DNA from: Botryococcus braunii
Lineage: Eukaryota; Chlorophyta; Trebouxiophyceae
Direction: 5' to 3'
Length of the DNA stretch: 25,000 bases
Assembly (NCBI GenBank): GCA_002005505.1
Contig: KV908358.1
Location: 528,683-553,682, forward strand
The notes beneath the pieces are model-generated. The model was not told the origin of the DNA. It searched no databases and saw only the letters and a list, made by a program, of their open reading frames with translations. Position 1 is the stretch's first letter; each line of letters opens with the position of its first letter. Of the stretch, positions 4,486 to 24,770 are shown in pieces. The translations under genes and the position numbers were made by a program.

Positions 4486-5179
4486 TGTGAAAGGTTATGG
4501 GCAATCGGCTTTCCCTGTACAAAGCAGACAGGTCGTCAATAGACGAAGTTACTCCAGCTACAGTCCGTACGACTGTCTGCTGAGTGCCACACACAACTGT
4601 CGGACAAGACTAGCATCTGGTGATGCCCAGCATCTTTCACAACCAGTTCCGTTACATCATTATCTTGTACACAAGCACCGATCAAGCAATCACTAGATAA
4701 GGCTCTAGACGGCTACGTTCAAGTACATGCCTATACTCCCTGAAGTCACTGTCCCTTATCTGTTTGAGTGACTACAGGGTACACTAAGCTTGTTCACTCT
4801 CACAATAGCAACAATGATACAACACACACTGCCGCACCGTACCTGTACAAAGCAGACAGGTCGTCAATAGACGAAGTTACTCCAGCTACAGTCCGTACGA
4901 CTGTCTGCTGAGTGCCACACACAACTGTCGGACAAGACTAGCATCTGGTGATGCCCAGCATCTTTCACAACCAGTTGGTATTCACTCCGGTGGGGCAGCC
5001 TTAAGAGTTCATCCGACAAACGTGTGATCTAGATAGGATTGTACCTTATGTTCGAAAACGTCCAGAATCTGCCGTGTCTCAAGGTACCTTATGTTCTCAA
5101 TGGACCCATATCCTAATAGTGCACACATGAAGATCACTTAAAGCACAAGGCATTCAATAATAATGTTCAGAACTCAACA
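4486..5179 (-). repeat. 3' LTR of the copia element
   Basis: In element sense it starts TGTTGAGTTC and ends CCTTTCACA. It matches 10804-11497 at an offset of exactly 6318 bases, and I found no difference by eye. It contains two copies of a 135-bp block (4514-4648 and 4842-4976). Each block carries an inverted repeat, cagacaggtcgt / acgactgtctg. Confidence 0.97.
4514..4976 (-). repeat. Internal 135-bp direct duplication within the LTR
   Basis: 4514-4648 and 4842-4976 are the same sequence from cctgtacaaagcagacagg to tcacaaccagtt, 328 bases apart. The same pair is present in the other LTR at 10832-10966 and 11160-11294. Each copy can form a stem from cagacag(g)tcgt with acgactgtctg around a ~32-base loop. 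Reiterated LTR blocks are often regulatory, but no function is shown here. Confidence 0.93.
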
Positions 5180-5190
5180 CTTCCCCTTGC
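5180..5190 (-). other. Polypurine tract of the copia element
   Basis: In element sense gcaaggggaag directly abuts the 3' LTR start TGTTGAG. Position and composition match a plus-strand primer. It lies 9 bases after the gag-pol stop codon. Confidence 0.85.
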
Positions 5191-5199
5191 CTGCATGCT

Positions 5200-8100
5200 T
5201 TAAGTGTATCTTCTCAAACCTAGTGAATCACGATGACCAACAAACACGGGCTTGGCAAGTGGCTTGGTCATAATGTCAGCCACATTGCGTGCAGATTCCA
5301 CATAGAGGATATCTACCTGCCCAAGTGCCATAGCTTCCCTAGCGTAGTGGAAGCTTACTGCAACGTGCTTTGTGAATTTGGAATACAGGGGGTTCCGTAA
5401 ATTAGAAATGCATCCTTGGTTGTCACAGAAAATTTTGACCCTCCAAGGTGCAGCCCCTATCTCTTCCAAGAAGCCCCTTAGCCAGTTGGCTTCCTTCACA
5501 ATATGGCCAGCTGCCATAAACTCAGCTTGCACAGTTGAGGTAGCAACTGAGCTCTGCTTCTTGCTTCCCCAAACCACGGCACTACCATAGACTGATAGAA
5601 CATAGCCAGTGGTGGAATACCTGTGGTCCAGGTCCCCAGCATAGTCGGCATCAACATAGCCTTCTAGCTCAGGGCCCTTTCCACCCAGAGTAAGAGCTAA
5701 CTCTCTGGTATCTCTCAAGTACTTCAGCACTCGAATGGCCTCATTCCAGTGTGAGGTAGTGGGTGTCATTCTATACCTTGACAACACTCCAACAGCCTGA
5801 GAAATGTCAGGCCGGGTCGTATTGGCTATGTACAGTAACGATCCAATTAACTCGCAGTATCGATGACCAGGTGGCAGAGGGGTACCAGCCCCATGTGACA
5901 TACCATCTGAGGACTCGGGTCTGCTGCTAGCCACGAAGTCCTTGGACATGGGGGTATCAACCCCACGTCCATCATCAGCAACGCCAAACTTCTCCACAAG
6001 AGCATCAATCTTGGGAGTGCAACTCATGGAAATAGTGCCCTGAACTCTATTGCGTAGGACCTGACACCCCAGGAAATCATTCACCTCTCCCAAATCATGG
6101 ATGGTGAAGTCCTTCTTCAATAACTCTTTCCCCCACTCAATCTCTGCAACCACTCTGGCAACTATGAGAAGATCATCGACATAAACAAGAATAAACGACA
6201 GATTACCATCAGGGGCCCTCCTGATGTATACCCCAGCGTCGCTCTTGCACACACTATACCCCATCACGCTCAACTTGTCGCTCAAGGTCTTGTGCCAAGC
6301 CCGTGGGGCTTGCTTAAGACCGTAGAGTGCCTTCCTGAGCTTGCACACAACTCTCGTGTTGCCATTCTCAAATCCTGGTGGTTGGGTCACATAGACCTCT
6401 TCCTCCAACTCCCCATTGAGAAAAGCTGTCTTGATATCCACTTGGTGGATCTCAAGATTTTGTGTGGCAGCCACTGCCAGCACAGCTCTCCTAGCACCAT
6501 AGCTGCTGGTAGGTGCAAAAACCTCACCAACATCTATACCAGGAATCTGTCTGCAACCCTGGGCAACCAATCTTGCTTTAAACCGAGTGACATTCCCATG
6601 TGCATCGTTTTTTGTAGAAAAAATCCAATGAACAGGGATAACTTTCTGCCCATGGGGTCTTTCCACATACTGCATAACCTCATGGGTGTCTAAAGACTCC
6701 ATCTCCTCTTGCATTGCCTGCTGCCAAAACTCCCACTGAGGTGAGCGCTGGGCTTCCCTCAAGTTTGAGGGCACGTGAACTTTTCCCAACGTGACAGAAG
6801 GTACACTCTTTACCTTATGCTGTGGTGCAGCAGGGCTGTCAGCCTTACTGATGCTGTTCCCTTCTCTCTCTCTCTCTCCCTGGTTGCCAGAATAAGGTAC
6901 ATTATGTACCTTATGCTGGGACTGGGCAGTACTGCCGGGATTATCTGATTCCTTCTCAAGTCTCTCTCTCTCTCCTTGACTACTGGACTCATGTGCAGCA
7001 CCCTTACATTCTCGCACCTTCCGCAATGCAGAGGGGAGCAGCAGCTCTCTCTCTCTCCTGGACTCACACTTGGGCACACTACCCAGACTTGCCTGAGCTG
7101 CGCCTACAATGTCAGCCTGCACACCATAAGCATGACTAGCCAGTGACTGGGATTGGGCACCAGCTTCCCCTACTGCTGGCATGTCTAACCCACTGCTCTC
7201 ATCTCTTACATCTGCCCCGAACATAGCCTCGACTGTCTCAACCTGCCCCTGCATATCAGGGAGACCAACCATGTTTGGCTCACTCACAATTGCCTGACCT
7301 GGGTCAGGGGCATGCAATGGGATGTCAGAATGCTCTCTCCTAGCCACGCGCTGTACATAACGCTGCTCCCTTGTAAGGGTGGTCCCTGGAGGAAGGGGAA
7401 TTTGTGACTTCCCCTGCATTCGCAACCCCTCTTGTACCTTCTGCATTTTTTCTACCTGGGATTGAGTTTCTACACCCCCCCTGGCCAGATTCTGCATATG
7501 CTCAAGCACCGACCACGAGTGCTGAGATGGTTCTGGGGTCCCAACAGTAGAATCCAGGCTGGTGGGGTTTCCTTGGTCATGTGCTGCTGTAGTCCCGTCT
7601 CCAGACTGATCCCCAGCACAAAGTCCAGAGGTCCCAGGAGCCCCAGTGGAAAGCGTCTCCACTCCATGGTCATCCTCCTCATCCCAGAACGTGGGTGGAG
7701 CAGCAGAGGGAATTGCTTGAGGCGTTGCCAGATTCTCACTGCCAAGGGGGGGTGATATCCTAGAATCATAGACAGACCCAGGCTGGACCTTTGATAGACC
7801 CACTCTCTCAGCCCCCCTCAAGTGCTCGATAAAGCTGACGTCCCTACTCTCCTTCCACACTCCATTCCCCACGTACACACGATACGCTTTAGACTGGGGA
7901 CAATAACCAGTAAACATCCCAGGGATGGTCTTGGGCCCAAAAACAGACCTTTGGCCACTGGGAATGTGCACATGGGCTACACAGCCAAACGTGCGCAGCA
8001 CAGACACATCAGGTTTGACACCAAAGAATAATTCCATGGGGGTCAGGGACCTGCCTGAAGTAGGACCCACATTGTAGAGGAGGGTAGCTGTCTCAAGCGC

Positions 8101-10413
8101 CTCCTTCCAAAGGGAGGGGTCTGCTGCAGCATGGACCAACAGAGTCCTTGTTCGCTCCTTCAGGGTCCTATTCATCCTCTCCGCCACCCCATTCTGCTGA
8201 GGCGTGTAGGGCGCTGAGGACTCCATCTTAGTGCCCTGCTGAGCACAAAACTCTTTGAATTGCTGGTTCAGGAACTCTGAACCCCTGTCAGTCCTCACAC
8301 ACTTCACAACCGTGCCTCGTTGGGTCTGCCAAAAACGGAGCAGGTCTATCACAGCCTTTGGGATGCAATCCTTTGACTTCACAGGCAGGGAGGCAACTTG
8401 GTGTGAACTTTCATCCACTACAGTGACCCAATATCGTTCACCTGTGATGGCAGGAGGTGATATGGGACCCACAGTATCCACATGGACTCTATCGAGTGGG
8501 TGATGTGCAGGCCTGGAAGATACAGGGAAAGGAGGTCTGGAGTGTTTCCCTTGTATACACGATTCACAGTGCTTGGGGCACTCAGAGCAGGGAGCAAGGG
8601 AGATATTGATTCCTGTAACCAGATCTTCCTTGGAGAACCTCTGCATGCTGCTGGCACCAGGATGACCTAACCTAGCATGCCACAGAGATCTCTCGCTACA
8701 CACGTGTCCTTTCCTAAGATGAGATGCCTCAGCCATGTGATCAATATGTCTGCAGCCAACTTGCTGCCCTCTGACAGGACTAACAAACTCCAAAAAAAAC
8801 AGACCTCGTGCGCGGGTGATATCTCCACACCACCCTTCAGGTCCCTTCATGGCTGTGTAACCACCTGCAGTGTCAGTCAGGAAAGATGCTCCATCCTGAA
8901 TTGCACCAGTGACTGAAATGAGGTTGGTATGCGCAGAAGGAACACACTGCACATTGTGCAGCCAGAATACTTCGTGCCTTGCATTCACAAGGCATACAGA
9001 CCCAGATGCAATGATTCCTCCCTTGGCGTCTGAGGTTGCCAAGTGCAGAGGAAGAGGCTGTCTATGCATAACTGGATTATGGAGCAATGAGAGATCATTG
9101 ACTATATGCACAGAGGCACCACTATCTATTAACCAAGATGTGCTGCTAGCTCCATGCGAAGTTGGGGCAAGCACATTGAGAGAGATAAACATCGCCTCAC
9201 CAGAAGGAGGGGGTGGAGGTGGTAAATGCCACCCCGGAAACGTGTGTTGACTTGTTGGATAGTTATATGCTGAAGGAGGTCCAGGGCTGGAAGCGGATGA
9301 AGGCGGGCCACCCCGGCCAGATCCATGGTCCCACCAGGCTTGAGGAGACGACTGTGGGCCTCCCTGGCCCCAGTAAGCTGCAGGCCCAACGCTTGCCGCT
9401 TGCATGTTTTGATGAAGAGCCTGCAGCTGCCTGAGCGGTCCGCAGTCAGTCATGAAGTGGCCCTTTGCCTTGCAGAAGTGGCATGTAAGCTCCTCTCTGG
9501 GCCTTCTTGCCCTGCCAGGTCCACGCCCCCTGCCACCAAAAGTAGTTGCAGAGGGGCCAGCGGGAGGCTGTTCGTTTGCTGGTAGTGCTGCTCCAACTCC
9601 CGGTACTGCTCCCACTCCTGGTGCAGCTCCAGCGCTTGATGACGCTCCAGCTACCCCCCCAGAGGGACCAGCCACTGCTGCAGCTGCCATGGCCTGAGGT
9701 GTTCCCTCTGCAGGTGGGTCCTTGTACCCACGGCTGGCTGCGGCGCGCAGGATTCTTTGAATCAGCTCCAATGGCGGCTTGTCGGTTGCCATAACCTCCA
9801 GGGACTCGAGCCTCAGCACAGGAGGGAGGCCCTTCACCATCAGCTCCCCAACATTGTGGTCCAAGAGGATGAACGCGTTGTTTCTGAGACTTGTAGCCAG
9901 ATCCATCATTCTGTAGAGGTAGACCTTGAGTGTCTCCCCTGTCTTGATGCCCTGCTCCATTTCCTTGTACCACTCAAGGTTGATGTCTTGGTTGCTCCCT
10001 CCAGTGTGACTGTTCTTCACCCACGCGATGAAGTCGAACGCTGCTTTGTGGCATGAGATCTGAGAATGCCAGATGACTGGAACTGACTGGATCAGCCACT
10101 GCTTGATGGCTGAGTTCTCCACCGACCCTGGCATTGGCCTCTCCAAAGCCGCTCTGACCCCCTTGGTGTTTGCGCACGCCTCCAAATTTTCATACCAAAA
10201 TTCAAAATTGCGCCCTCCATCATCAAGCATGACAGTCATCTTTGGATTAGAGGTATTGGGGATGTAGGCTGCCTTGTCAATCTCCACCTTTGGTTCTGCA
10301 GTGGCTGATTGTGTCCCGGTCATAGACTGCCCTGGAGTGGCCCCACTGACTTCTCCAGGTTGAGACATTGCTGTTTCACTGCTACTTTCCTTTTCTTTGC
10401 CCCTTTTTGTCAT
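5200..10413 (-). CDS. Copia gag-pol polyprotein (1737 aa)
   Basis: One frame encodes the capsid protein and all enzymes of the element. Gag lies at about residues 55-235, with a CCHC zinc knuckle at 311-324 (CHFCKAKGHFMTDC). Aspartic protease: DSGAS at 430-434. Integrase zinc-binding motif: H579, H584, C616, C619. Integrase core: D646, D709, E745, with exactly 35 residues between the last two. Reverse transcriptase: D1326 in HQVDIKTAFLNGE and YVDD at 1411-1414. RNase H: D1588, E1631 and D1664 in CDNQG. A Ser/Gln/Glu-rich linker of roughly 330 residues (about 885-1215) separates integrase from reverse transcriptase and contains repeated GERER and QHKV..VP motifs. There is no frameshift or stop between gag and pol, so capsid excess would need another mechanism. 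The ATG chosen is the first of the frame, behind a leader of about 375 bases. All catalytic residues are present. Confidence 0.97.
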   Translation of the reverse strand: MTKRGKEKESSSETAMSQPGEVSGATPGQSMTGTQSATAEPKVEIDKAAYIPNTSNPKMTVMLDDGGRNFEFWYENLEACANTKGVRAALERPMPGSVENSAIKQWLIQSVPVIWHSQISCHKAAFDFIAWVKNSHTGGSNQDINLEWYKEMEQGIKTGETLKVYLYRMMDLATSLRNNAFILLDHNVGELMVKGLPPVLRLESLEVMATDKPPLELIQRILRAAASRGYKDPPAEGTPQAMAAAAVAGPSGGVAGASSSAGAAPGVGAVPGVGAALPANEQPPAGPSATTFGGRGRGPGRARRPREELTCHFCKAKGHFMTDCGPLRQLQALHQNMQAASVGPAAYWGQGGPQSSPQAWWDHGSGRGGPPSSASSPGPPSAYNYPTSQHTFPGWHLPPPPPPSGEAMFISLNVLAPTSHGASSTSWLIDSGASVHIVNDLSLLHNPVMHRQPLPLHLATSDAKGGIIASGSVCLVNARHEVFWLHNVQCVPSAHTNLISVTGAIQDGASFLTDTAGGYTAMKGPEGWCGDITRARGLFFLEFVSPVRGQQVGCRHIDHMAEASHLRKGHVCSERSLWHARLGHPGASSMQRFSKEDLVTGINISLAPCSECPKHCESCIQGKHSRPPFPVSSRPAHHPLDRVHVDTVGPISPPAITGERYWVTVVDESSHQVASLPVKSKDCIPKAVIDLLRFWQTQRGTVVKCVRTDRGSEFLNQQFKEFCAQQGTKMESSAPYTPQQNGVAERMNRTLKERTRTLLVHAAADPSLWKEALETATLLYNVGPTSGRSLTPMELFFGVKPDVSVLRTFGCVAHVHIPSGQRSVFGPKTIPGMFTGYCPQSKAYRVYVGNGVWKESRDVSFIEHLRGAERVGLSKVQPGSVYDSRISPPLGSENLATPQAIPSAAPPTFWDEEDDHGVETLSTGAPGTSGLCAGDQSGDGTTAAHDQGNPTSLDSTVGTPEPSQHSWSVLEHMQNLARGGVETQSQVEKMQKVQEGLRMQGKSQIPLPPGTTLTREQRYVQRVARREHSDIPLHAPDPGQAIVSEPNMVGLPDMQGQVETVEAMFGADVRDESSGLDMPAVGEAGAQSQSLASHAYGVQADIVGAAQASLGSVPKCESRRERELLLPSALRKVRECKGAAHESSSQGERERLEKESDNPGSTAQSQHKVHNVPYSGNQGEREREGNSISKADSPAAPQHKVKSVPSVTLGKVHVPSNLREAQRSPQWEFWQQAMQEEMESLDTHEVMQYVERPHGQKVIPVHWIFSTKNDAHGNVTRFKARLVAQGCRQIPGIDVGEVFAPTSSYGARRAVLAVAATQNLEIHQVDIKTAFLNGELEEEVYVTQPPGFENGNTRVVCKLRKALYGLKQAPRAWHKTLSDKLSVMGYSVCKSDAGVYIRRAPDGNLSFILVYVDDLLIVARVVAEIEWGKELLKKDFTIHDLGEVNDFLGCQVLRNRVQGTISMSCTPKIDALVEKFGVADDGRGVDTPMSKDFVASSRPESSDGMSHGAGTPLPPGHRYCELIGSLLYIANTTRPDISQAVGVLSRYRMTPTTSHWNEAIRVLKYLRDTRELALTLGGKGPELEGYVDADYAGDLDHRYSTTGYVLSVYGSAVVWGSKKQSSVATSTVQAEFMAAGHIVKEANWLRGFLEEIGAAPWRVKIFCDNQGCISNLRNPLYSKFTKHVAVSFHYAREAMALGQVDILYVESARNVADIMTKPLAKPVFVGHRDSLGLRRYT

Positions 10414-10789
10414 ACTATTGTCACTTCACCAGCCAAACTTACTCATAAACTTCTGGAATGCAGCAATACCCTACAATTCCCTCCATGTCATGGAAATTTA
10501 CCAGCCAGTCTTGCACAGTAGTAGCAGATATGTTCCCCTCAGAAGTTTGCGCCGGAGTCCGGCCCGACTCACTCAGTGCTTCTAGACAACGTCTATGAAT
10601 GATAAAGCACAGCTAAAACTTCAATTATGAATTTCCCAGAAAGGTAAACTGTGAGTAAGATAATGGTCCTGGTACACTCGAGTTCCCTTGCGCCGCTGCG
10701 CCATGCTCGAGCTCCTTTGTTGACGCTTACGTCTGACCCATCCGTAGACGACCTTCACTCCTGCTTTTACTTGGCTCAGCTGGAAGGGC
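10414..10789 (-). other. Leader between PBS and gag
   Basis: About 376 bases of untranslated leader in element sense, between the primer-binding site and the gag ATG. It should hold dimerisation and packaging signals, but I recognise none. No coding region is seen. Confidence 0.6.
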
Positions 10790-10803
10790 GTGGGCCCATA
10801 ACC
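10790..10803 (-). promoter_or_regulatory. Primer-binding site matching initiator tRNA-Met anticodon arm
   Basis: In element sense the 14 bases directly after the 5' LTR are GGTTATGGGCCCAC. This is complementary to GUGGGCCCAUAACC, the anticodon stem-loop (CAU anticodon) of eukaryotic initiator tRNA-Met, rather than to a tRNA 3' end. Drosophila copia and some relatives prime this way from a cleaved half-tRNA. The site also forms a 10-bp hairpin with the end of U5 (10811-10820). Confidence 0.88.
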
Positions 10804-11497
10804 TGTGAAAGGTTATGGGCAATCGGCTTTCCCTGTACAAAGCAGACAGGTCGTCAATAGACGAAGTTACTCCAGCTACAGTCCGTACGACTGTCTGCTG
10901 AGTGCCACACACAACTGTCGGACAAGACTAGCATCTGGTGATGCCCAGCATCTTTCACAACCAGTTCCGTTACATCATTATCTTGTACACAAGCACCGAT
11001 CAAGCAATCACTAGATAAGGCTCTAGACGGCTACGTTCAAGTACATGCCTATACTCCCTGAAGTCACTGTCCCTTATCTGTTTGAGTGACTACAGGGTAC
11101 ACTAAGCTTGTTCACTCTCACAATAGCAACAATGATACAACACACACTGCCGCACCGTACCTGTACAAAGCAGACAGGTCGTCAATAGACGAAGTTACTC
11201 CAGCTACAGTCCGTACGACTGTCTGCTGAGTGCCACACACAACTGTCGGACAAGACTAGCATCTGGTGATGCCCAGCATCTTTCACAACCAGTTGGTATT
11301 CACTCCGGTGGGGCAGCCTTAAGAGTTCATCCGACAAACGTGTGATCTAGATAGGATTGTACCTTATGTTCGAAAACGTCCAGAATCTGCCGTGTCTCAA
11401 GGTACCTTATGTTCTCAATGGACCCATATCCTAATAGTGCACACATGAAGATCACTTAAAGCACAAGGCATTCAATAATAATGTTCAGAACTCAACA
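10804..11497 (-). repeat. 5' LTR of the copia element
   Basis: Same 694-bp sequence as 4486-5179. In element sense this is the promoter-carrying copy. The duplicated 135-bp blocks lie at 10832-10966 and 11160-11294. I could not assign a TATA box or polyadenylation signal with confidence. Confidence 0.96.
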
Positions 11498-18021: not shown

Positions 18022-19140
18022 CAGATCCTCGCGAGGGCGGGACCGACACGTGTTTGCAAAGGATCATCCCAAGGGCAGGGCTGCCACGGGATCGCGTATG
18101 GGAAGTTTTGGAAGGGCCAAACTAATTAGTATATTATAAAGAGCCTCCCGGGGCGGGTCTTACAAGGGATCCTCCCGAGTGCGGGTCTCACAAGGGATCC
18201 TCCCGAGTGCGGGTCTCACAAGGGATCCTCCCGAGTGCGGGTCTCACAAGGGATCCTCCCGAGTGCGGGTCTCACAAAGGATCCTCCCGGGGCGGGTCTT
18301 ACAGGGGATCCTCCCGAGTGCCGGTCTCACAAGGGATCTTCCCGAGTGCGGGTCTCACAAGGGATCCTCCCGAGTGCGGGTCTCACAAGGGATCCTCCCG
18401 GGGCGGGTCTTACAAGGGAGCCTCCCGAGTGGGGTCTCACAAGGGATCCTCCCGAGTGCGGGTCCCACAAGGGATCCTCCCGAGTGCGGGTCTCACAAGG
18501 GATCCTCCCGGGGCGGGTCTTACAAGGGACCCTCCCGAGTGGGGGTCTCACAAGGGATCCTCCCGAGTGCGAGTCTCACAAGGGATCCTCCCAAGTGCGG
18601 GTCTCACAAGGGATCCTCCCGAGTGCGGGTCTCACAAGGGATTCTCCCGAGTGCCGGTCTCACAAGGGTTCCTCCCGAGGGCGGGCAGGATGAAAGATCC
18701 CGACTGCGCGGGGGTCTCACATTAGGGTTCTTCAGGAGGGCGGGCCTGACAAGGGATCCTCCTGATCAGCTCGAGTATGGGTCTCACGAGGGATCCTCCC
18801 GGGCGGGATCCTCACGAGGGATCCTTGAGGAGGGCGGGCCCGAGGTTGGATTTTTCAAGGGATCATCCAGATGGCAGGTCGGGTCGGACAACGGATCACA
18901 TAAAGGAGCTCCCCGACGGCGGGCTGGACAAGAGATCATGTAAGGGAGCTTCCGGAGGGCGGGCCAGACACCTTAGCTTCCCGAGGGCGGGCCTGCTGAG
19001 CAATCACATAAGGGATCTTCCGGAGGGCGGCCCGGACGAGTGACGGTCCCGAGGGCGGGTCTGACAAGAGATCCACCCGACGGCGGGTGGGACGTGCACT
19101 GTGGTGTTCTGAGGTCGGGTACCCAACGTGGGATACCCCA
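18022..19140 (+). repeat. 28-bp GC-rich minisatellite with higher-order structure
   Basis: The unit is gggatcctcccgagtgcggg + tctcacaa, present about 19 times between 18141 and 18690. Degenerate versions of irregular length flank it (18022-18140 and 18690-19140). A 27-bp variant (cccggggcgggtcttaca) occurs near 18147, 18286, 18397 and 18507, the last two intervals being about 110 bases (four units). The unit length is not a multiple of three and contains no stop in any plus-strand frame, so three overlapping long frames arise (254, 172 and 152 codons). These are unlikely to be genes. Confidence 0.95.
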
Positions 19141-19961: not shown

Positions 19962-19966
19962 CGACG
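19962..19966. repeat. 5-bp target-site duplication of the TRIM (left)
   Basis: cgacg directly precedes the left LTR and is repeated at 20574-20578 after the right LTR. Confidence 0.9.
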
Positions 19967-20121
19967 TGTAGTGCGGAGCGGATCGGGATCTCTTGTCCCC
20001 GGTCCGGCTCGGATACATAAGCAGGCGATTATTCGTACAAGTACCTTGGTACTTTTAGCCGATCGGTTAGAGCCGCGACTCTGGGTCGAGTCGGTCGAGG
20101 GTTCGATCCCCCGGCACAACA
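19967..20121 (+). repeat. Left LTR of the TRIM
   Basis: Begins tgtagtgcggagcgg and ends cccccggcacaaca. It contains a perfect 7-bp-arm inverted repeat (aagtacc tt ggtactt) directly before the tRNA-like part. Confidence 0.95.
20056..20110 (+). promoter_or_regulatory. tRNA-like A box and B box in the TRIM LTR
   Basis: tagccgatcggttagagc (from 20056) resembles the D-arm/A-box region of a tRNA gene (TAGC..AG.CGGTTAGAGC) with one base fewer. ggttcgatccc (20100-20110) fits the B-box consensus GGTTCGANTCC at 10 of 11 positions. Their spacing of about 44 bases is in the tRNA range, and cgactc/gagtcg between them can form a stem where the anticodon stem would be. The acceptor and T stems do not pair, so this is not a functional tRNA gene. 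The same boxes recur in the right LTR at 20508 and 20552-20562. Confidence 0.6.
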
Positions 20122-20123
20122 TT

Positions 20124-20140
20124 TGGTATCGGCGATCTGG
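20124..20140 (+). promoter_or_regulatory. PBS-like site of the TRIM
   Basis: tggtatc lies three bases... two bases after the LTR end, the usual place of a PBS, and equals the complement of a tRNA-Met 3' end GATACCA. The following ggcgatctgg differs from the plant consensus TGGTATCAGAGC, so the primer tRNA is uncertain. Confidence 0.6.
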
Positions 20141-20409
20141 TTGATGGGCCATTTTTCATGGTAAAATCGCCTCGGGTATGAGCGCGAGGCTGAAATGGGC
20201 CCAAATCGATCGCAGGTGCTTGGTGCACGTGTTTGAGGCCCCACGGGAGTGGCCACGTGATCAGGCACAGTGCGAAGGGGAGATTCGGTGATCGGTGGCG
20301 ATAATCGCGGGATGTCAGCGCGGTATATCTCTTTCCCTGGCGGCCAAGCGGGCCGTTGAGTAACGCCTAAGAGTGGTGGAGTGCGAGCGAGGACGCTCGA
20401 TTCTTAGGT

Positions 20410-20418
20410 GGGGGGAGA
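20410..20418 (+). other. Polypurine tract of the TRIM
   Basis: ggggggaga directly abuts the right LTR start tgtagtg. Confidence 0.8.
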
Positions 20419-20573
20419 TGTAGTGCGGAGCGGATCGGAATCTCTTGTCCCCGGTCCGGCTCGGATACATAAGCAGGCGATTATTCGTACAAGTACCTTG
20501 GTACTTTTAGCCGATCGGTTAGAGCCGCGACTCTGGGTCGAGTCGGTCGAGGGTTCGATCCCCCGGCACAACA
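20419..20573 (+). repeat. Right LTR of the TRIM
   Basis: 155 bp, differing from the left LTR only at 20439 (a instead of g) by eye. Followed directly by the cgacg target duplication. Confidence 0.95.
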
Positions 20574-20578
20574 CGACG
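20574..20578. repeat. 5-bp target-site duplication of the TRIM (right)
   Basis: cgacg, same as 19962-19966. Removing the element and one copy restores an unbroken frame across the PD motif of the LINE endonuclease fragment. Confidence 0.9.
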
Positions 20579-24160: not shown

Positions 24161-24770
24161 GCTGTGAGGGGGTTGCATCCGCCCTGTTGGAGGGCTTGGG
24201 AGACTGACTCGAAGGGTTTTGTGGCATCAGCTTGGAGGGCTTGCGAGACCGACTTGGGAGGGGTTTGAGAGACCAGCTTGAAGGGCGTGAGAGACCGACT
24301 CGGGAGGGTTTTGTGGGACCGGCTTCGAGGGCTTGGGAGACTGACTCGGGAGGGCTTTGTGGGACCAGCTTGAAGGGCTTGAGAGACCGACTCAGGAGGG
24401 TTTTGGGAGACCGACTTTGGAGGGCTTGGGAAAGGACTTCAGGGAGGCAACTGAAAAGACCACTTTAGAGGGCTTCGGACGCTGCTTTGCATGGGTTGGG
24501 GGACCAAATTCGAGGGGTTTGGGAGACCAGTTTGTGGAGGGCGTGGGAGACCAGTTTGCGGAGGTCACTTTGGGGTCCTTGGGACGCTACTGTGGAGGGC
24601 TGGGGAGACCACCTTGTAGGGCTTGGGAGACCGCCTTGGAGGGCTCGAGAGGCCACCTTTTAGGGCTTGGGAGACCACCTTGTAGGGCTTGGGAGACTGC
24701 CTCGGAGGGCGTGGAACCATACTTGGAGGGCTTGGGAGACCAGCGTGGAGGGGCTCTGGAGGCCCAAAGC
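24161..24770 (+). repeat. ~24-bp GGGCTTGGGAGACC minisatellite
   Basis: Degenerate head-to-tail units of the form gagggcttgggagaccgact. Spacer bases vary, and there are alternate ggttttgtgggaccagctt units in the first half. Some 25 copies, less regular toward the right end. The minus-strand frames (LPSPTRWSPQPS type) are repeat translations. Confidence 0.9.

Follow-up and report, generated by a model that had tools for sequence, protein, structure and literature searches.

The window, a 25,000-nucleotide stretch of the Botryococcus braunii genome (C24:528683-553682), carries at positions 19967-20573 a complete 607-bp TRIM, read on the forward strand, in which two LTRs enclose 297 bp of non-coding DNA and PBS, PPT and TSD are all present. 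The 5' LTR (19967-20121) runs from TGTAGTG to CACAACA and differs by 1 mismatch from the 3' LTR (20419-20573); each is 155 bp long, and the pair is bracketed by copies of the TSD CGACG at 19962-19966 and 20574-20578. Within the internal region (20122-20418), the PBS TGGTATCGGCGA lies at 20124-20135 and the polypurine tract GGTGGGGGGAGA at 20407-20418, and a TTTTT run at 20152-20156, 52 nt after the start of the B box described below, is a possible Pol III terminator. The first-pass annotation had described such an element (155-bp LTRs, a cgacg duplication, PBS-like and PPT sites), and all of these parts were confirmed at exact coordinates. The PBS can base-pair through 12 nt with the 3' terminus of a host tRNA, CCA being added by rule for the comparison; this tRNA lies at three genomic places, one of which (C53) is also an Rfam tRNA match. 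Priming of the TRIM by a host tRNA is a well-supported prediction; the tRNA is probably initiator-Met, judging by its T-arm motif.

The 3' part of the LTR is a conserved tRNA-like block (R-U5; 20042-20121 in the 5' LTR) that holds an A box, TAGCCGATCGG, at 20056-20066 and a B box, GGTTCGATCCC, at 20100-20110, with their counterparts in the 3' LTR at 20508-20518 and 20552-20562. The earlier claim of a tRNA-like A box and a near-consensus B box about 44 bases apart is thereby borne out in both LTRs. The stem that had also been proposed between the boxes holds in part: an anticodon-arm-like hairpin, GACTCTGGGTCGAGTC, places GACTC opposite GAGTC at 20077-20092, but the overall fold of the block is unremarkable. 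Upstream of the boxes, a TATA-like TACATAA occupies 20014-20020, at -35 from the tRNA-like +1, and a near-palindrome with a TTTT end, AAGTACCTTGGTACTTTT, covers 20039-20056 and may constitute the R region. The block closes on the LTR tip CACAACA (20115-20121), which is also the tip of the LTR of a gypsy partner in which the same PBS is found.

A search of the 176-Mb genome listed at least 52 TRIM matches, with the best 40 of 124 candidates scored, and a 20-mer spanning the B box has 159 matches when up to 2 mismatches are allowed, as against 0 for the reversed control. Among 26 complete copies, a perfect 5-bp TSD flanks 15 and is missing from the other 11; several of these 11 sit in tandem or nested arrays, for example at C114 and C74. 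The 5-bp TSDs and TG..CA ends establish LTR-type integration, and the family has moved recently, since the LTR pairs of 12/26 complete copies are identical. The copies at C218 and C506 have the same TSD and immediate flanks and may be a single insertion seen twice. Several TRIM copies (e.g., L004, L006, L009, L012 and L035) are, by raw tally, embedded in or adjacent to coding sequence of copia or gypsy type, as might be expected if a chromodomain guided insertion into other transposons.

We aligned 76 LTRs, taking only matches that span position 9 or earlier to position 154 or later and leaving partial LTRs out, and these group as lineages A (32), B (36) and C (8). The LTRs have diverged in their first half and hardly at all over the final 80 columns: lineage majorities differ at 21/80 (A-B), 12/75 (A-C) and 12/79 (B-C) columns in the 5' part and at only 1, 1 and 0 of 80 columns, respectively, in the 3' part, and variable columns number 52/94 upstream, including a 14-bp insertion in one copy, versus 11/80 in the block. 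The tRNA-like block is conserved at the level of the lineages. TACATAA, the A box and the B box are each present in 76/76 LTRs, the tip CACAACA in 75/76, and both TTTTAGCC, from the near-palindrome at 20039-20056, and the TTTT that abuts the A box in 74/76; AATTACC replaces AAGTACC at the near-palindrome in many LTRs of lineages B and C. The expectation that the boxes would be more conserved than their surroundings passed weakly, with 0/22 box columns varying against 11/80 in the whole block (hypergeometric P = 0.022, on 11 variable columns among related young copies and with box limits chosen by the analyst); the value is weak evidence because the copies are young and related and the limits analyst-set.

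The column pattern fits constraint on an R-U5 region as well as constraint on the boxes. The block could be the plain R-U5 of a Pol II LTR, perhaps derived from a tRNA or SINE, retained for RT or RNA structure or kept uniform by LTR recombination, and not a Pol III promoter. We regard this alternative as possible but, on balance, doubtful. It is favoured by the conservation boundary at LTR position 76, which is 28 nt past the first base of TACATAA and in the place expected for Pol II initiation, and it is opposed by the complete lack of variation in the box columns.

How strong is the resemblance to a tRNA? The A and B boxes start 44 nt apart in the LTR, and the same distance is 42-45 nt in 23 of 24 distinct host tRNA genes and 52 nt in the remaining one. 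A box-pair score trained on those same 24 genes gives the LTR 21.5, with a perfect B box and a weak A box (2.1 bits), just below the weakest of the 24 genes themselves (22.3-30.8). This is the top score in the window on both strands; the best site fully outside the LTRs reaches 15.9, and a minus-strand site scoring 16.5 overlaps the 3' LTR. Beyond the boxes, the 72-nt block aligns to host tRNAs with a score that is matched by 2/1000 shuffles and by 26/8488 background segments with tRNA neighbours left in, or by 13/8842 once ARAGORN tRNAs are masked, and 9 of those 13 look by eye like tRNA pseudogenes. The block's similarity to host tRNAs is moderate: among host tRNAs sought as a parent, the best were Pro-TGG and Lys-CTT with a score of only 18, and none was clear. 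Among the host tRNA loci, C79 (L074, L087, L089) holds a cluster of tRNA-Asn genes together with degraded tRNA-Asn-like copies.

ARAGORN called no tRNA gene at the LTR block, and Rfam scans gave neither a tRNA match (window, E<=5; block, E<=10) nor a 5S match in the window or the block; the block is not a functional tRNA. A resemblance arising by chance would accord with these empty scans, with the weak A box, with a fold z-score of -1.2 that 26/200 shuffles equal, and with one site scoring 21.5 when 400 kb of a single strand was simulated (an expectation of about 0.1 for each 25-kb window). We nevertheless give chance very little credence, for the block lies within a 155-bp LTR with exact tRNA spacing, its similarity extends past the boxes, and a B box also precedes the PBS in a second repeat family.

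The signals for Pol III transcription point both ways. A TATA-like motif lies at -52 to -20 in 16/30 host tRNA genes versus 36/590 control stretches, and the LTR TATA at -35 falls within the zone of the host tRNA-gene TATAs; together with the spacing of the boxes, this position speaks against a plain Pol II R-U5, although the same TATA could equally serve Pol II. CAA start motifs were considered as further support and dropped: CAA occurs upstream of 12/30 host tRNA genes versus 185/590 controls and gives no Pol III support, because it is not clearly enriched there. Downstream, the first run of at least four T within 60 nt of 30 host tRNA genes is T4 in 12, T5 in 8 and longer in 7, and is absent in 3. 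The TTTTT at 20152-20156 sits where a tRNA-gene terminator would, and a T run follows the PBS in 26/26 complete copies (T5 in 25, T4 in 1). A Pol III transcript beginning near 20040 would therefore be expected to stop after about 115 nt, and the conserved run argues against a full-length Pol III RNA, a point in favour of the Pol II R-U5 alternative. The TTTT beside the A box would also count against a Pol III promoter, as would the weakness of the A box itself. We view transcription of the TRIM by Pol III as possible.

If Pol III does act here, the block and the upstream TATA would recruit TFIIIC and TFIIIB, and transcription would start at approximately 20040. A full-length Pol III RNA would have to read through the TTTTT at 20152-20156 and stop at the TTTT at 20505-20508 in the 3' LTR, which would leave an R of about 17-18 nt (~17 nt by these coordinates). 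Alternatively, Pol II may make the genomic RNA from the same TATA, with Pol III making only the short RNA of about 115 nt.

The probable helper of the TRIM is a young Ty3/gypsy chromovirus of about 5.95 kb, whose LTR we call LTR_X. Its domains were read on two ORFs of a copy at C50 and comprise RT, RNase H, integrase (H2C2 and core) and a chromodomain; the RNase H region of that copy is interrupted by a frame break. LTR_X followed by the PBS and gypsy interior occurs at at least 14 places with 96-100% identity (best 40 of 76 candidates scored), and at least 8 of the 14 have, by coordinates, a partner LTR_X at a distance of about 5.95 kb; LTR_X is 350 bp long at C50 and 337 bp in the other full-length copies examined. 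The helper and the TRIM have in common 21 bp, CACAACATTTGGTATCGGCGA, made up of the CACAACA that ends the LTR plus 14 nt around the PBS, and TGTTGTGC begins both LTR_X and 7/8 LTRs of TRIM lineage C. The bodies of the two LTRs are dissimilar: neither strand of LTR_X contains a B-box core, LTR_X lacks a TATA match, and its tRNA alignment score is at most 14 versus 18 for the TRIM block. On this comparison, the LTR tips, the PBS and the type of PPT are common to the two elements and the LTR body is different; that the helper's LTR does without a tRNA-like block again tells against a plain R-U5. Mobilisation in trans of the TRIM by this chromovirus family of the same genome is a prediction well supported by these features.

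TRIM and helper sequences are also found joined. At C50 (L091), TRIM LTRs flank gypsy genes, with TGGCA on both sides (by eye), in the order TRIM LTR, gypsy interior, internal LTR_X, whole TRIM interior and TRIM LTR, and both junctions fall within the shared 21 bp. The same anatomy is present at both ends of C74:487755-493987, of which all but about 3 kb in the middle was read. A TRIM LTR precedes gypsy interior at at least 5 places (best 40 of 155 scored); two of the five were read through, and the others are at C96, C109 and C319. In the LTR_X search, alignments stop at query position 371-372, which marks LTR_X plus the shared PBS, at at least 11 places; 7 were read, and 5 of these run into TRIM interior (C50, C74:493197, C249, C319 and C195), whereas the other two (C193:278985 and C74:494005) do not and are inverted junctions. 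Inverted joins of TRIM and helper near the shared LTR tip and PBS form palindromic junctions in L042/L043 (C74:487144-494341) and L058 (C193:278985-279501).

As we read their junctions, the composites are products of recombination between helper and TRIM DNA at the shared 21 bp. An earlier reading of C50 as an autonomous gypsy with a tRNA-like LTR, and of the TRIM as its deletion product, was dropped once the internal LTR_X was found, because its presence makes C50 a composite. The broader proposal that the TRIM derives by deletion from a 6.2-kb autonomous gypsy with its own tRNA-like LTR can draw on C50 and C74, which carry the TRIM LTR on both sides of gypsy sequence, yet we judge it highly improbable: the right end of each holds an internal LTR_X and then the whole TRIM interior, both junctions lie inside the 21 bp that the TRIM and helper have in common, and at least eight helper copies have two LTR_X, each copy about 5.95 kb long. 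Retention of the block in composites of about 6 kb favours the Pol II R-U5 alternative. Ty5 offers a possible parallel, for tandem elements are said to have been traced by Ke and Voytas in 1997 to retrotransposon cDNA recombination; there, too, LTR-flanked units are joined at common sequence, whereas here two different elements are joined, at a 21-bp LTR tip plus PBS. Composites recombined inside the shared 21 bp are new here, as is the probable helper of this TRIM.

The origin of the block can be approached through its relatives. The suggestion that a tRNA-derived SINE head had been captured by an LTR element found no support: block motifs of 20 and 24 nt occur 159 and 156 times, versus 192 for a 19-nt U3 motif, all at up to 2 mismatches, and since the block motifs are no commoner than the U3 motif, no free SINE population with the same head is indicated by these counts. 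In a search with the head (best 40 of 166 candidates scored), 30 loci were fetched, and all lie in whole or partial LTRs of the TRIM family. Scanning for B boxes that immediately precede a PBS gave 80 places, of which 67 read as the TRIM family, 7 more fit it by length, and 6 read GGTTCGATTCCGCTGAGCGCTACA-AG-TGGTATC. With up to 2 mismatches allowed, this last 24-mer is present at 40 places, among them 6 same-strand pairs 347-351 bp apart (for example C16:656615/656962), and in 4/6 pairs the upstream copy is one of those that the PBS follows. The coordinates indicate a second short LTR-type element, new here and known by those coordinates, whose LTR would have a B box close to its end, which speaks against the Pol II R-U5 alternative.

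From the start of the B box to the end of the LTR there are 22 nt in the TRIM and 24 nt in the second element (proposed end), and the sequences are unlike. These distances are close to that in a tRNA, where by standard numbering box B lies 22 nt from the 3' end, or 25 nt with CCA. An unlikely scenario would be tRNA capture at the primer site, in which RT switched at initiation from the PBS to a tRNA template and replaced U5, with no SINE landing involved; a cassette acquired in this manner and closed by the TTTTT behind the PBS would yield a short Pol III transcript that stops just past the PBS. Because the helper LTR also has the final 7 nt of the TRIM LTR, these need not be tRNA-derived, and this sharing would count against capture.

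The first-pass annotation held that a tRNA-like TRIM LTR was not widely described, a view now superseded by Kojima 2024 (PMC10886601), which names as Helenus the TRIMs with tRNA-derived LTR sequence found in fungi, animals and one plant, Selaginella. Helenus elements are given there as 311-1263 bp in total, with TSDs of 5 bp in fungi and plants and 4 bp in animals, and most of their LTRs contain the box A motifs TRGCY and YGG and the box B motif GGTTC. All three motifs are in the TRIM LTR, and TAGCC..CGG with GGTTC is in 76/76; the element measures 607 bp with two LTRs and has the boxes in the LTR, an interior bounded by the PBS and the PPT, and a 5-bp TSD like those of fungal and plant Helenus. 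By each Helenus feature compared, the TRIM is a new example of Helenus and not a new kind of element. In the library searched, no further paper on such elements came up under Helenus (2024 onward) or TRIMp3.

We consider it probable that the element is a non-coding TRIM of Helenus type, with a tRNA-like block ending its LTR, moved by a chromovirus and, by conjecture, served by Pol III. Kojima predicts that a TRIM and its autonomous partner are unlikely to have a long part of the LTR in common (PMC10886601), and the LTR body here is likewise not in the partner. The same paper infers helpers for Helenus and Ajax from resemblance of the PBS or interior, and proposes both as Pol III genes, a proposal for which it reports no experiment; the present case differs in having a probable helper in the same genome, together with helper-TRIM composites. 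It also differs in pairing a chromovirus helper with a 5-bp TSD, whereas in Kojima's account fungal Helenus goes with Copia and 5 bp and animal Helenus with Gypsy and 4 bp.

Among other TRIMs, Cassandra (PMC7215508, PMC10886601) is similar in having a Pol III-type promoter, putative here, in its LTR and in forming tandem copies; its R is given in Kojima's introduction as 18 bp between start and terminator, comparable to the possible 17-18 nt here, but the present LTR is tRNA-like and has no 5S match in Rfam. Ajax, a nemertean TRIM with a 5S fragment (PMC10886601), likewise has a promoter piece derived from a small RNA in its LTR, but it is 5S-derived and an animal element. For plant tRNA-gene signals and TRIM tandem arrays, we drew on the pertinent parts of PMC11700998, PMC11899658 and PMC7215508.

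A TRIM and its probable helper thus occur in one genome, both apparently active recently, with tips and PBS in common and LTR bodies that differ. This makes it testable which features in trans a helper must recognise, and whether the genomic RNA is a Pol III product even though a T run lies behind the PBS, and the composites offer a route by which a helper could gain a new promoter.

Elsewhere in the window, an inverted repeat at 646-787 has 53-nt arms that are 96% complementary and 36 nt apart, looks like a MITE-like palindrome, and gives a MIR9783 score below gathering on both strands. Minisatellites lie at 18144-18685 (28-bp unit, 19.5 copies), where they give long overlapping ORFs, and at 24187-24752 (46/92-bp and 22/66-bp units). 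A Ty1/copia element at 4486-11294 has an intact gag-pol ORF of 1737 aa (5200-10413, minus strand) and repeats that are 100% identical over 300 nt (4486/10804) and 135 nt (4842/11160), and because these repeats are identical we read it as a very recent insertion.
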